Under the pieces are notes generated by a model. That model searched no databases. It was given only the letters and a program-made list of their open reading frames with translations, and was not told the origin of the DNA. Source: a virus. Taken from it: a stretch of 21,561 nt of DNA. Shown here one piece after another: positions 2,277 to 9,345 of the stretch. How positions within the stretch are numbered: position 1 is the stretch's first letter; every line of letters starts with the position of its first letter. A program made the translations under genes and the position numbers. The stretch covers positions 1-21,561 of IMG/VR virus record IMGVR_UViG_3300046007_009626. One strand, written 5' to 3'.

Positions 2277-3404
2277 ATGGAAAATAATAATAGTGTTTGC
2301 TACATAGCAAAAATTGATGAAATTAAAGTAATACCCGGAGCAGATAATATCGAGCAAGCAGTTATCGGCGGATGGAATTGTATTATTCAAAAGAACCAAT
2401 ACGCCGAAGGTGATTTAGTTATAGTTGCAACAACCGATGCAGTTATACCTCAGGAATTATCAGATGCAATGAACGTAACTAATTACTTACGTAAAGGTGG
2501 GCGTGTGCGTACTGTTAAATTAAGAGGTGTTTATTCTGAGTGTTTGATTATCCCTTTAAAATATATTCCATTTATGGAAAACTATTATGAAGGTAAGGAT
2601 ATGATGTATGCAATGAATATTTATAAATACGAACCACCTGCAATACAAGTACAATTAGCTTCAGGTCGTAAAGTTAAGTACCATCAAAATCCAAACTTTA
2701 CAGTATACTATAAGTTCCCTAACTTTAAAAACGTTAAAGGAATGTTTACTGAAGAAGATGAGGTTCAAATCACTCGTAAACTTCATGGTACTAATGCTCG
2801 TTATGGTATTGTAAAGAAAAGAAATTTATCTTTATGGGATAAGGTTAAAAAATTCTTTGGTATTGCAGATCAGTGGATTGAATACGAATACGTATATGGG
2901 TCTCATAACGTAGAAAAAGGGTCAGATTCGCAAGGGTTTTATGATACCGATGTGTGGAGAACAATAGCCGAAAGCTATGATATTAAAAATAAATTATGGT
3001 CATATGCTAAAACATATGGTCCCGATGTTATTGGAAGCGGAATTATATTGTATGGTGAAATTTGCGGCCCTGGTATTCAAAAGAACTATGATTATGGTTT
3101 AAATAAAATAGAATTCCTAGGATTTGACTTTGTTGAAAATGGTAAGTATTTAGACACTTGGTCTACTGCTCACGTTATTGTTGATAGACTTAATTTACCT
3201 CATGTACCTGAACTATATGTTGGTATGTGGTCTCAAGAAATACAAGATAAATATACATTTAATAATTTTATTGAAGGCTCTAAAGTGCCTCAAGAAGGTA
3301 TCGTTATTAAAGATGTAAGTGGCGAGCGTAGTAAGATAGCGAAGGTAATTAACCCGGACTACCTAATATACGGCGAAAAGCATAATGTAGGAGATAGTCA
3401 TTAA
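2277..3404 (+). CDS. RNA ligase, DraRnl/Rnl5-like (DRB0094 family)
   Basis: A 375-aa ATP-dependent RNA ligase of the covalent nucleotidyltransferase superfamily. Residues 1-100 form the N-terminal OB-like module seen in Deinococcus RNA ligase (KVIPGADNIEQAVIGGW, EGDLVIVATTDAVIPQEL, GRVRTVKLRGVYSECLIIPL). The nucleotidyltransferase domain follows, with motif I TRKLHGTN and predicted AMP-accepting Lys168, motif III-like LYGEICG (258-264), motif IV EGIVIKD (340-346) and motif V KIAKVIN (Lys353, Lys356). All key motifs look intact, so the enzyme should be active. Family enzymes seal 3'-OH/5'-PO4 nicks in duplexes containing RNA. Just upstream of a tRNA and tmRNA island, a plausible role is repair of RNAs cut by host defence nucleases (inference). 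The start ATG at 2277 sits 15 nt after the previous stop, with no Shine-Dalgarno. Confidence 0.88.
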   Translation: MENNNSVCYIAKIDEIKVIPGADNIEQAVIGGWNCIIQKNQYAEGDLVIVATTDAVIPQELSDAMNVTNYLRKGGRVRTVKLRGVYSECLIIPLKYIPFMENYYEGKDMMYAMNIYKYEPPAIQVQLASGRKVKYHQNPNFTVYYKFPNFKNVKGMFTEEDEVQITRKLHGTNARYGIVKKRNLSLWDKVKKFFGIADQWIEYEYVYGSHNVEKGSDSQGFYDTDVWRTIAESYDIKNKLWSYAKTYGPDVIGSGIILYGEICGPGIQKNYDYGLNKIEFLGFDFVENGKYLDTWSTAHVIVDRLNLPHVPELYVGMWSQEIQDKYTFNNFIEGSKVPQEGIVIKDVSGERSKIAKVINPDYLIYGEKHNVGDSH

Positions 3405-3405
3405 G

Positions 3406-3948
3406 ATGATAAAGCAATCGTTCGTTAACGCTCATAATATACACTTATATATTAAGGTTCCTGATCATTTATGGTATACTGCTACACATTATACGCACGT
3501 ACCTAGTAAAGACCCAGAATATCCTTATTTTGCAAACGAACAGCGATATGGATGGATGGATGTTGTTTATTTAACTGACCCTATTATAGACGCATCTGGC
3601 GGATTTCGTGACCCAGAATGGATCTATATATTAGTTAATAAATCTATGCCTGGTATGGTTAAAATTGGACTAACTACAACATCTGTTACGCAGCGTGTTA
3701 AAGAAATAAACAGTGCTACTGGCGTTCCTACTCCTTGGCTCTCTGTTTACCAATTTAAATGTTATGGTTCTAGATATTTAGAAAAAGAAGTTCATGAATA
3801 TTTGTCTACTTATAGGGTAGCATCTAATCGAGAAATGTTTGCTGTCACATCGACACATGCCCAAGAAGTTATTGAAAAGTTAGGCGACCCGTATACAAAT
3901 ATTTTTTATGATGAACAAATAAAATCTAAAAAAGATTTGGAAATTTAA
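3406..3948 (+). CDS. T5orf172/MUG113-type GIY-YIG-like protein
   Basis: A 180-aa protein. Residues 1-68 are an unassigned N-terminal region rich in Tyr and Trp. Residues 71-160 match the T5orf172/MUG113 branch of the GIY-YIG superfamily: WIYILVNKSMPGMVKIGLTT supplies the two Tyr/Gly strand motifs in their relaxed 'YIL ... VKIG' form. Arg97 follows in TQRVKEIN, SATGVPTPW is the family signature loop, Glu126-Glu128 fall in YLEKEVHEYL, and NREMF (141-145) is the usual end motif. The presence of Tyr, Arg and Glu means nuclease chemistry is possible, but many family members are of unknown activity. It starts 1 nt after the RNA ligase stop, so the two are likely co-expressed. A free-standing homing endonuclease is an alternative reading. 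Confidence 0.75.
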   Translation: MIKQSFVNAHNIHLYIKVPDHLWYTATHYTHVPSKDPEYPYFANEQRYGWMDVVYLTDPIIDASGGFRDPEWIYILVNKSMPGMVKIGLTTTSVTQRVKEINSATGVPTPWLSVYQFKCYGSRYLEKEVHEYLSTYRVASNREMFAVTSTHAQEVIEKLGDPYTNIFYDEQIKSKKDLEI

Positions 3949-5087: not shown

Positions 5088-5466
5088 GGGGGTGAATGGA
5101 ATAGATTGGAGACAGAACGAATAGTAATCATGCAGTAGATGATATTGACCTACTTAAAAAACATATCAAGCTTTAACAGGCAAAAACAATACCATTAGCA
5201 ACGAGTCTAGGACTTTCGCTAATAACACTTTAGCTAGAATCATTTCATTAGTAAATGAAGAAGTAGCTATAGCTGCATAGTTTATAGTCTTAGTTTACTT
5301 GTATCAATAGACTTAAAACAGCAGGAAACAAGTTGGTGGAGAGTTAGCCTTTATCGGTTGGCCCTACTTGAGTATTACAAGTTATAGAAATACAAACCAA
5401 GCATGTAGTAAAGTTATTATTAAGTTATCTAGCAAGACAGGGGTTCGAATCCCCTCACCTCCACCA
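5088..5466 (+). ncRNA. ssrA: Transfer-messenger RNA (tmRNA), phage-encoded, long tag
   Basis: A 379-nt one-piece tmRNA. The 5' GGGGGTG (5088-5094) pairs with CACCTCC (5456-5462), giving the G3-U70 wobble that alanyl-tRNA synthetase recognises. The T arm is AGGGG-TTCGAAT-CCCCT, and ACCA is encoded at the 3' end. Two tag frames are possible near nt 92 of the RNA. The favoured one resumes at GGC (5179-5181), like the Gly resume codon of Bacteroidetes tmRNAs. It reads 33 codons, beginning GKNNTISNES and ending LVNEEVAIAA, before TAG at 5278. The -AIAA end resembles the usual -ALAA degron. A GCA at 5180 in another frame reads 17 codons ending LITL and lacks a degron. A later in-frame resume at GCT 5218 would give a 20-aa tag with the same end. 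No smpB is visible here, so host SmpB is presumably used. A poor -7-like box (5074-5081) precedes it. Confidence 0.93.
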
Positions 5467-6027: not shown

Positions 6028-6058
6028 TTGGATATTTGAAAAGAATCTCTTATCTTTA
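6028..6058 (+). promoter_or_regulatory. Bacteroidetes-type promoter of the first large tRNA block
   Basis: TTG at 6028-6030 (in TTGGATATTTGA) and TATCTTTAAGTATAATA from 6051. tRNA-Phe starts at 6076. The same extended sequence (TTxGGAxATxTGA ... TATCTTTAAGTATAATA) recurs at 7115-7146. Confidence 0.75.
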
Positions 6059-6075
6059 AGTATAATAAAAAATAA

Positions 6076-7114: not shown

Positions 7115-7146
7115 TTAGGAAATATGAATTGTTTTTCTTATCTTTA
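7115..7146 (+). promoter_or_regulatory. Bacteroidetes-type promoter of the second tRNA block
   Basis: TTAG at 7115-7118 (in TTAGGAAATATGAA) and TATCTTTAAGTATAATA from 7139, nearly identical to the promoter at 6028-6058. tRNA-Gln begins at 7185. Confidence 0.75.
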
Positions 7147-7184
7147 AGTATAATAAGAAATAAAGATCTTTGACGTATTGTAAT

Positions 7185-7925: not shown

Positions 7926-8038
7926 CACAAATAAAGTTGTGAGTTGTATTGAAATAGCCAATTATAAGTCAACATAAAGCTGTTGAATACAGACGGAATA
8001 ATTAACCAGAGTATAGGCACCGATTGTGACAGTACAAC
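7926..8038 (+). ncRNA. Putative structured RNA between tRNA-Val and tRNA-Ser
   Basis: A small hairpin CACAA-ATAAAG-TTGTG (7926-7941) precedes a multibranched element closed by GTTGTA (7943-7948) / TACAAC (8033-8038). Inside are AATTAT (7960-7965) / ATAATT (7998-8003) enclosing CAACA-TAAAGC-TGTTG (7970-7985), and the hairpin CAC-CGATT-GTG. The gap holds no ORF of note and no tRNA features. Confidence 0.45.
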
Positions 8039-8044
8039 AAATAT

Positions 8045-8076
8045 CCCTCTGAGTGAGTTATGTTTTATATAGAGGG
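8045..8076 (+). promoter_or_regulatory. Anti-acceptor hairpin overlapping the tRNA-Ser 5' end
   Basis: CCCTCT (8045-8050) is complementary to AGAGGG (8071-8076), which is the 5' acceptor strand of the following tRNA-Ser. A precursor could fold in this competing way. The upstream copy resembles the tRNA's own 3' acceptor strand. Confidence 0.3.
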
Positions 8077-8330: not shown

Positions 8331-8334
8331 CCAT

Positions 8335-8420
8335 GGAGAGTAAAGCAACCGGGGTGTTGTCACTGCCTGCTAAGCATGTGGTTCGGTAAAACGGATTTGT
8401 TTCGATTACAATGCTCTCCG
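8335..8420 (+). tRNA. tRNA-Ser (GCU)
   Basis: A class II tRNA with a long variable arm. Acceptor GGAGAGT/GCTCTCC, anticodon loop CTGCTAA (GCT) on a weak stem, T arm TTGT-TTCGATT-ACAA, the usual G73. Confidence 0.87.
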
Positions 8421-8428
8421 CAATAAAT

Positions 8429-8518: not shown

Positions 8519-8591
8519 AGTTCTATGGTGTAATGGATTAGCACCAACGCCTTCTAAGCGTTTAGTATAGGTTCGAATCCTATTAGAACTA
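8519..8591 (+). tRNA. tRNA-Arg (UCU)
   Basis: Acceptor AGTTCTA/TAGAACT, anticodon stem AACGC/GCGTT with loop CTTCTAA (TCT), T arm ATAGG-TTCGAAT-CCTAT, A73. Confidence 0.93.
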
Positions 8592-8604
8592 CAAAAATAA
8601 AAAT

Positions 8605-8736
8605 GTACCACGATGCTTCCCGTAAGAACAGCACAATTTTCAGTGGTGATTTCTCCACGCAAACGAATAGCCCAAGGCATAAGTTATGGTGGATTACCAA
8701 ACCTCTCCTTAATGGACGCATTAAGTGAAGTTTGGG
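8605..8736 (+). other. Structured spacer upstream of the interrupted tRNA
   Basis: TACCAC (8606-8611) pairs with GTGGTG (8643-8648). Further on, CCAAAC (8697-8702) pairs with GTTTGG (8730-8735) around an inner hairpin CTTAAT-GGACGC-ATTAAG (8708-8725). ACCTCTCC (8701-8708) and AGTTTGGG (8729-8736) are also each perfectly complementary to 8-mers inside the following tRNA-like gene. No gene is visible in this stretch. Confidence 0.45.
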
Positions 8737-8740
8737 ACTT

Positions 8741-8835
8741 AGTCAGGTGGTGTAATGGTAACACTCGGAGAGGTAGTCGCTAAAACGTTAAGGTTGACCC
8801 AAACTGAAATACAGGTTCGAATCCTGTCCTGACTA
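8741..8835 (+). tRNA. Interrupted tRNA-like gene, no recognisable anticodon arm
   Basis: Acceptor AGTCAGG/CCTGACT is perfect, the D arm is GTGT-AATGGTA-ACAC (8750-8764) and the T arm ACAGG-TTCGAAT-CCTGT (8811-8827), with A73. The segment between the arms (8765-8810) is 46 nt, where about 22 nt is usual, and I find no 5-bp stem with a T33-containing 7-nt loop. It contains GGAGAGGT (8767-8774) and CCCAAACT (8798-8805), both complementary to the upstream spacer. The identity is undetermined. It may carry an insertion or be non-functional. Confidence 0.6.
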
Positions 8836-8836
8836 C
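8811..8836 (+). repeat. 26-bp direct repeat, left copy (tRNA T arm plus acceptor)
   Basis: Identical over 26 bp to 9131-9156. This copy is the 3' end of the tRNA-like gene. The spacing of the copies is 320 bp. Confidence 0.95.
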
Positions 8837-8842
8837 TAAACA

Positions 8843-9118
8843 ATGGAAAACATGGAATTTGATAAATTAAAAAAAGGAGATTATGTTAAATGGGTCGCCA
8901 ACAGAACAATTGGTGGTGTAACATATAAAAGTTGGGACACTTTCGGGAAAATAATTTCAAAGGATAAAGAAAAAATTACTGTTATGACTTATGATGATTT
9001 TAAAAAGACAGACCTATCAAAAAGTGGTGATGCTGTAAGAGAAGAAATTTCATTAGCCACTAAATGGAATGTTTCAGTAATAAAACGATTATTAGGATGC
9101 GTTAGGGAAATTTTTTAA
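8843..9118 (+). CDS. 91-aa protein carried between duplicated tRNA ends
   Basis: ATG 8843 to TAA 9116 encodes 91 aa, starting 7 nt after the tRNA-like gene. The sequence KLKKGDYVKWVANRTIGGVT, then DTFGKIISKDKEKITVMTYDD, suggests a small SH3/KOW-like beta-barrel ('KKGDxVKW' followed by a strand pattern). The C terminus is helical (EEISLATKWNVSVIKRLLG). There is no integrase, transposase or homing-nuclease motif. It is the only protein gene inside the second tRNA block, and it lies in a unit flanked by exact 26-bp copies of a tRNA 3' end. It may have been acquired as cargo at a tRNA site. Function unknown. It has no Shine-Dalgarno. Confidence 0.65.
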   Translation: MENMEFDKLKKGDYVKWVANRTIGGVTYKSWDTFGKIISKDKEKITVMTYDDFKKTDLSKSGDAVREEISLATKWNVSVIKRLLGCVREIF

Positions 9119-9130
9119 ATTAAATAAATG

Positions 9131-9156
9131 ACAGGTTCGAATCCTGTCCTGACTAC
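9131..9156 (+). repeat. 26-bp direct repeat, right copy (orphan tRNA 3' end)
   Basis: An exact copy of 8811-8836 with no 5' tRNA half attached, resembling the remnant left when an element inserts at a tRNA 3' end. Confidence 0.95.
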
Positions 9157-9165
9157 AAACTTAAA

Positions 9166-9252
9166 ACCGATCCGGGTTCGTGAACAAGGGAGGCCTGCGA
9201 CTTGAAATAAAGACAAATCACGTTAAATCTCCCCACGTAAGGTGGTATCGGT
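9166..9252 (+). ncRNA. Putative structured RNA with cloverleaf-like pairing
   Basis: ACCGAT (9166-9171) pairs with ATCGGT (9247-9252). Inside are the hairpin GTTC-GT-GAAC (9176-9185), the long stem GGGAG (9188-9192) / CTCCC (9229-9233) and the hairpin CCAC-GTAAG-GTGG (9233-9245, sharing one base with the stem). These give 87 nt with three branches. There is no TTCRA loop at the T-arm position and no anticodon arm. It lies between the orphan tRNA end and tRNA-Arg. Confidence 0.5.
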
Positions 9253-9265
9253 GACCTTACAAACT

Positions 9266-9338
9266 GCTTCCTTAGTTCAATGGATCAGAACACTCGGCTA
9301 CGAACCGGGAGATAGGAGTTCGAATCTCTTAGGAAGTG
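9266..9338 (+). tRNA. tRNA-Arg (ACG)
   Basis: Acceptor GCTTCCT/AGGAAGT (G1-U72), anticodon stem CTCGG/CCGGG with loop CTACGAA (ACG, normally edited to ICG), T arm AGGAG-TTCGAAT-CTCTT, G73. Confidence 0.92.
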
Positions 9339-9345
9339 CAAACAC

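Follow-up and report, generated by a model that had tools for sequence, protein, structure and literature searches.

A widespread tRNA-like element with variable payloads underlies a 26-bp repeat in a phage tRNA array

We identified, by sequence and folding comparison, the two copies of a 26-bp repeat around a small open reading frame (ORF) as 3' halves of a phage tRNA-like element (TLE), a very common phage RNA element. The TLE combines the acceptor AGTCAGG, intact D and T arms and the A15-U48 pair with a variable payload that replaces the anticodon arm. The window analyzed here is the whole stretch of 21,561 nucleotides, a 21.6-kb IMG/VR phage contig (IMGVR_UViG_3300046007_009626), in which the repeat pair and the ORF lie within a dense tRNA array. 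The family, its conservation at the RNA level, its placement between small ORFs and its turnover at fixed loci are demonstrated below at the level of sequence. The explanation that we favor, with some reservation, is that the window contains a TLE with an exchangeable structured payload, that the block around it arose by recombination at tRNA or TLE 3' ends, and that tRNA enzymes process the element.

The repeat, ACAGGTTCGAATCCTGTCCTGACTAC, is present at 8811-8836 and 9131-9156 (320 bp from start to start) and flanks a 91-aa ORF exactly as the first-pass annotation had described. The last 23 bases of the 26-mer, searched with up to three mismatches, matched two sites in the window, both of them the known copies, and none in shuffled sequences. 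The repeat is not peculiar to the 320-bp unit; the same 26-mer occurs in at least 120 IMG/VR contigs. The first copy had been read as the end of an interrupted tRNA; Rfam does score a tRNA there (8741-8835, 47.8 bits), but ARAGORN makes no call and the anticodon arm is absent. The supposed likeness of the AAAT and AAAC flanks was not significant, the base 5' of the T arm being T in 180 of 195 elements and G at the second copy.

The window TLE (8741-8836, plus strand) consists of a 5' half with the acceptor strand AGTCAGG and a D arm with A14 A15 and G18 G19 (8741-8764), a 46-nt payload ending in U48 in place of the anticodon arm (8765-8810), and a 3' half with the T arm and the other acceptor strand, which is the first 26-mer (8811-8836). 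The acceptor AGTCAGG/CCTGACT, the D arm and the T arm fold as expected, and the acceptor has eight pairs, counting T8740-A8835. Folding of the 46 nt between the D and T arms gave no anticodon arm, and this payload folds no better than its shuffles (z +0.77). We dropped an extended fold of the payload with upstream sequence (CCCAAACT with AGTTTGGG), because the upstream strand pairs inside the adjacent RNA module U (described below) and this strand is kept in L196, where the payload differs. The second 26-mer (9131-9156, plus strand) is a lone TLE 3' half. It has no 5' half, the Rfam tRNA score at 9100-9155 is 17.5 bits (below the 29-bit cut-off), and the T-arm hairpin is all that it can fold; it is probably inert.

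An exact scan of IMG/VR with the 26-mer gave the at least 120 contigs mentioned above, several with two to five copies, with at most five per fetched stretch. Among 84,980 bacterial and archaeal GTDB genomes, only four loci carried the 26-mer, two of them in MAGs labeled Sediminibacterium or Chitinophagaceae. In the fetched DNA, GTCAGG was detected 28-156 nt 5' of the 26-mer in 130 of 146 copies, followed by a D arm that is mostly GTGGCGGAATTGGTAGACGC or close to it and resembles the D arm of tRNA-Leu. The 5' half alone was also used as the query, to escape the bias of a 3' query, and 123 of the 130 matches had the 3' half. TLEs are about 75-200 nt long, and Rfam knows them only as weak tRNAs, mostly with 30-50 bits. 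They have the paired acceptor and T arm and the D-arm G18 G19 of a tRNA; an anticodon arm with a seven-base loop and U33 was detected in at most 25 of 371 unique elements and is missing from the window TLE. A few copies with the same arms hold true anticodon arms, for instance tRNA-Lys in L031 and L170. Some TLEs (L039, L052, L081, L329) have an additional D-loop insert besides the payload.

A 60-nt arms-only query of INPHARED (50,697 phage records), which is a weak test, recognized no TLE. It matched ordinary tRNA T arms and, in cyanophages, short D-arm-to-T-arm stretches, which we take to be tRNA-Leu attachment sites. A description of TLEs was not found in the open-access literature, and the class is apparently undescribed.

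The T stems vary with compensation (ACTGG/CCAGT, GATGG/CCATC, GCTGG/CCAGC, ACAAG/CTTGT, ACGGG/CCCGT, ACTCG/CGAGT), and variation of the T loop stays within that normal for T loops. In the 180 of 195 non-redundant elements with T immediately 5' of the T stem, this base corresponds to U48, the partner of D-loop A15. The compensated stems, the T-loop pattern and the retention of U48 point to selection on the arms as a folded tRNA elbow, rather than as a DNA site.

The payloads (about 195 non-redundant) are mostly 20-120 nt long, the shortest about 20 nt, and are unrelated from copy to copy. Compared with dinucleotide shuffles their folding is better (mean z over 173 sequences, -0.71), and as a bulk statistic crossing, pseudoknot-compatible helix pairs are enriched. 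The payload 3' end pairs preferentially 10-40% into the payload and not with the payload 5' end, and helices joining the two ends show no clear excess (31%, versus 26% in shuffles); the pairing of the 3' end therefore fits H-type pseudoknots and not an anticodon-loop intron. One payload family, GAGAGTTCTGCNGGCTC, has a compensated stem and was located inside TLE arms in 12 of 12 contigs, in several unrelated contexts. We also considered and rejected payload antisense activity against nearby genes (longest complement within 3 kb 8.69, versus 8.70 in shuffles) and promoters at TLE 5' ends (30 of 346 have TANNTTTG no more than 40 nt away, versus 14 shuffled, thus a minority only). Known introns had no Rfam match in the loci tested.

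TLEs are placed closely between small ORFs. For 334 TLEs, counting ORFs of at least 40 codons within a 60-nt reach, an ORF starts 3' of the TLE in 124 cases, versus 15 in the shuffled control, with most starts 12-20 nt away, and an ORF ends 5' of the TLE in 103, mostly at 3-14 nt. Runs of TLE-ORF-TLE-ORF are common. Genuine tRNAs of the same loci have neighboring ORFs more rarely (100 of 446 downstream, 72 of 446 upstream); since they also lie near ORFs, the spacing is not exclusive to TLEs. One relative of the window, L248 (a 171.7-kb contig, 91% identical in the flanking gene), carries the 3' core eight times, spread over several sites, and the payload was different in each of the seven copies examined.

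The 91-aa ORF itself (8843-9118, plus strand, 91 codons) more likely starts at ATG 8852, which would give 88 aa, because ORFs 3' of TLEs usually begin 12-20 nt downstream. Homologues of the protein were not detected in INPHARED, and IMG/VR gave a single contig, the 99.9% identical one. A six-frame search of the fetched loci produced nothing convincing (best E 0.59), and Pfam and PHROGs matched only at E 0.0099 or worse. The AlphaFold model is poor (pLDDT 55), with a few strands. The unit lacks an integrase, as had been noted, and none was detected among the ten window proteins scanned; one might still act in trans. We found no signs of excision, no integrase and no further copies of the ORF.

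Eight relatives of the window locus, plus the 99.9% identical contig, were collected via the flanking RNase H-like gene. The order tRNA-Leu(TAG), tRNA-Arg(TCT), tRNA-Arg(ACG) is kept wherever their sequence reaches. In L242 and L244-L247, the last four of which are near-identical and represent one lineage beside L242, (A)CTTAAAACCGAT or a sequence very like it comes immediately after tRNA-Arg(TCT), together with an RNA that we call X, and tRNA-Arg(ACG) comes next. The flank beginning AACTTAAAACCGA thus adjoins tRNA-Arg(TCT) in these five contigs, while in the window it adjoins the second 26-mer. The difference is an extra block of 564 bp (8593-9156, plus strand) in which module U comes first, then the TLE and the ORF, and last the lone 3' half. 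On its left the block is joined at the 3' end of tRNA-Arg(TCT) (8519-8592, plus strand; ARAGORN, Rfam) and its right joint is the lone 3' half, so that both joints lie at tRNA-like 3' ends. These five contigs lack the whole block, none lacks the ORF unit alone, and the variable unit is therefore larger than 320 bp. The pattern that the first-pass annotation would have taken as a sign of old duplication and not of mobility, one arrangement in all relatives with divergent repeats, is not what the locus shows; relatives differ and the repeats are identical. We infer the direction of change here, and three further arrangements are represented by L248 (a different TLE at the equivalent site), L241 (a gap of 4 nt between the two tRNAs, X lying upstream) and L243 (another RNA at the equivalent site).

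The components of the locus are themselves structured RNAs. Module U (8605-8738, plus strand) is a conserved structured RNA with 81-84% identity in L196, L134 and L181, and it folds better than 200 of 200 shuffles (z -2.5). In L196 and L134 a TLE 3' half, complete or partial, precedes it and TLEs with other payloads follow it; in L181 tRNA-Thr follows it. Module U recurs before differing elements, and modules therefore switch places between tRNA and TLE ends. X (9159-9262, plus strand) is, by the covariation of its sequence, a real H-type pseudoknotted RNA. Its helices pair GTAAGGT (9237-9243) with ACCTTAC (9254-9260) and ACCGAT (9166-9171) with ATCGGT (9247-9252). Five pairs are changed on both sides, and the covariation score is 0.326, versus 0.147 for shuffled and at most 0.122 for slid alignments. 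The right neighbor is tRNA-Arg(ACG) (9266-9339, plus strand; ARAGORN, Rfam).

Exchange was also detected beyond the window locus. With the arms masked, 230 TLE pairs have a common payload but neither flank, and 28 pairs have both flanks but not the payload. Most of the same-flank, different-payload pairs shown come from one locus 5' of a gene for a 215-aa protein. Among 80 relatives collected via this gene, the site lacks a TLE in 46 and holds one or two in 34, whose payloads fall into 12 unrelated clusters. The gene tree requires at least 18 changes of presence and at least 15 changes of payload among filled sites; support is weak at many of its forks, and the gene may be subject to recombination as well. 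L251 and L253 are near-identical from the TLE 3' end on and divergent upstream, one with the TLE and the other without it. These comparisons demonstrate that TLEs are gained, lost and payload-swapped at fixed loci between related phages.

We propose a view of TLEs as RNA cassettes that are processed like tRNAs, punctuate phage transcripts and undergo recombination through their arms. The 3' ends of tRNAs and TLEs, which are nearly identical, could recombine homologously between co-infecting phages and so assemble the block, and a dedicated integrase would not be needed. RNase P would cut the TLE 5' end, and tRNase Z or exonucleases would trim the 3' end. Removal of the TLE would free the flanking small mRNAs and RNAs, and the excised TLE may be a stable RNA bearing the payload. 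A more tentative suggestion is that TLEs are natural tRNA scaffolds for small RNAs, in which the constant arms would provide for processing and stability and the payload would be an interchangeable RNA effector, for instance a decoy or an antitoxin-like pseudoknot against host defenses, with its rapid turnover at fixed loci reflecting an arms race.

The lone 3' half may mark where the incoming block was joined, or it may be what is left of a second TLE. In the latter case a complete TLE originally stood on each side of the ORF, and a deletion removed the 5' half and the payload of the second one. This is close to the tandem tRNA duplication with ORF capture proposed in the first-pass annotation, in the form of a TLE-ORF-TLE with a truncated second TLE. 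TLE-ORF-TLE layouts are common, a shrunken TLE of L033 (AATCAGGTGGGGGAATCCTGTCCTGACTAC) retains both outer pieces, and partial 3' halves of 14-17 nt follow ORFs in L032, L130, L134, L185 and L213; a second-TLE stump is quite possible because of these remnants. Against it, a complete second TLE at the window site was found in no relative, the 26-mer is letter-perfect although everything 5' of it would have been lost, and X, the flank after the lone 3' half, adjoins tRNA-Arg in relatives. Such decay bears on nothing but the lone 3' half and does not conflict with the other parts of the explanation we favor. Insertion by a tyrosine recombinase supplied elsewhere, in which a cassette of ORF and tRNA 3' end enters at the TLE 3' end, rebuilds the TLE and displaces the old end, matches the classic footprint of a rebuilt tRNA, cargo and a displaced identical 3' fragment. 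Several displaced fragments also start in the T loop, and the arrangement without the block exists in relatives. The unit has no integrase, though, the ORF has no other copy, and the extra block starts at the neighboring tRNA, takes in module U and the TLE and exceeds what the repeats bound, so that an integrase-made cassette is unlikely. The compensated T stems indicate that the repeat is kept for RNA reasons, which explains its identity without integration. Of the earlier proposal of insertion or recombination at a tRNA 3' end, recombination at tRNA or tRNA-like 3' ends thus agrees with the comparison to L242 and L244-L247; a 320-bp satellite or integrase-dependent cargo does not, given the 564-bp block, a repeat belonging to an RNA family, and the lack of excision signs, integrase and ORF copies.

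The element as such could also be read in two other ways. TLEs might be functionless decayed tRNA genes kept alike by recombination. A tRNA origin is likely, and the tRNA-Lys copies in L031 and L170 have the same arms; the compensated T stems, the retained U48, payload folding beyond shuffles and tight ORF spacing nevertheless make loss of function improbable, as does a payload family with a compensated stem confined to these arms in all 12 of its contigs. Splicing of the payload as an anticodon-loop intron, restoring a decoding tRNA, seems very doubtful. The acceptor, D and T arms are intact and ARAGORN forces anticodons onto some elements, but pairing of the payload ends with each other shows no clear excess (31% versus 26%; the 3' end pairs 10-40% inward), payloads are as short as about 20 nt, Rfam matched no intron in the loci tested, and most amino acids have a genuine tRNA nearby.

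The TLE shares with the tRNAs of phage arrays (RF00005) the acceptor, D arm, T arm, U8, G18 G19 and the Levitt-type A15-U48 pair. It differs from them in that at least 93% of the 371 elements lack an anticodon arm, the acceptor AGTCAGG/CCTGACT is near-constant, and the payloads, mostly of 20-120 nt, are unrelated from copy to copy. Like tmRNA (RF00023), it has a tRNA-like end domain and an inserted pseudoknotted RNA replacing the anticodon arm, but it is far shorter, has a full D arm and no recognized tag reading frame, and occurs in many copies per phage. A distinct, phage-borne tmRNA with the long tag GKNNTISNESRTFANNTLARIISLVNEEVAIAA lies at 5088-5466 of the window; it is the sole one called by ARAGORN or Rfam, with none at the TLE site.

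Islands and phages integrate at tRNA 3' ends via tyrosine recombinases. Such islands and the window have in common that direct copies of a tRNA 3' end flank the cargo. The cargo-free relatives of such islands have a partial counterpart in L242 and L244-L247, which lack the whole 564-bp block; in the TLE case there is no integrase, complete copies are many per genome, and the repeat is part of an RNA gene under structural selection. In lambdoid phages, short conserved boundary or linker sequences at module joints permit homologous exchange. TLEs likewise provide conserved joint sequences between exchangeable modules, but the linker itself is a tRNA-like RNA whose own middle is exchanged.

GOLLD and ROOL are ornate phage RNAs of unknown function near tRNA islands, with tRNAs sometimes located in the linker region of GOLLD (PMC12286853). 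TLEs are also structured RNAs of phage tRNA arrays, but they are about 75-200 nt long and match neither family, and the window has no match to either. GOLLD RNAs were detected in two TLE-bearing loci (L119, 153-560; L208, 3644-4051).

Rfam, the open-access literature and, within the sensitivity of our query, the 50,697 phage records yielded nothing comparable. Because current tools read TLEs as odd or missing tRNAs, a large RNA class is hidden in the genomes of uncultured phages. TLEs tie together the unexplained RNA in phage tRNA arrays, a possible cutting of polycistronic transcripts around very small genes, and the shuffling of gene modules. If the payloads act, TLEs are by nature a modular RNA format, of which hundreds of variants already exist.

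Further features were detected in the window and the related loci. An unusual tRNA-Ser(GCT) with an odd D arm (8333-8421) is conserved in L046, L058 and L191 and was missed by both ARAGORN and Rfam. A conserved RNA between tRNA-Val and tRNA-Ser (7927-8055) has about 82% identity in L225, L206 and L226, and a TLE follows its counterpart in L225 and L226. An RNA ligase gene adjoins a gene for a T5orf172 (GIY-YIG type) protein 5' of the tRNA array (2277-3948). The exact repeat TTATCTTTAAGTATAATAA at 796-814, 6050-6068 and 7138-7156 (five near matches, 0.25 expected) is likely a phage promoter, and similar stretches are repeated in L064, L125 and L222. A hairpin, GCTCGGAAAGACGAGC, with the constant loop GGAAAGAC and varied stems, is present in L050, L073, L087, L103, L105 and L114, 3' of their TLEs, and in L243; it often stands right before tRNA-like 5' ends and is probably the 3' end of another RNA family.
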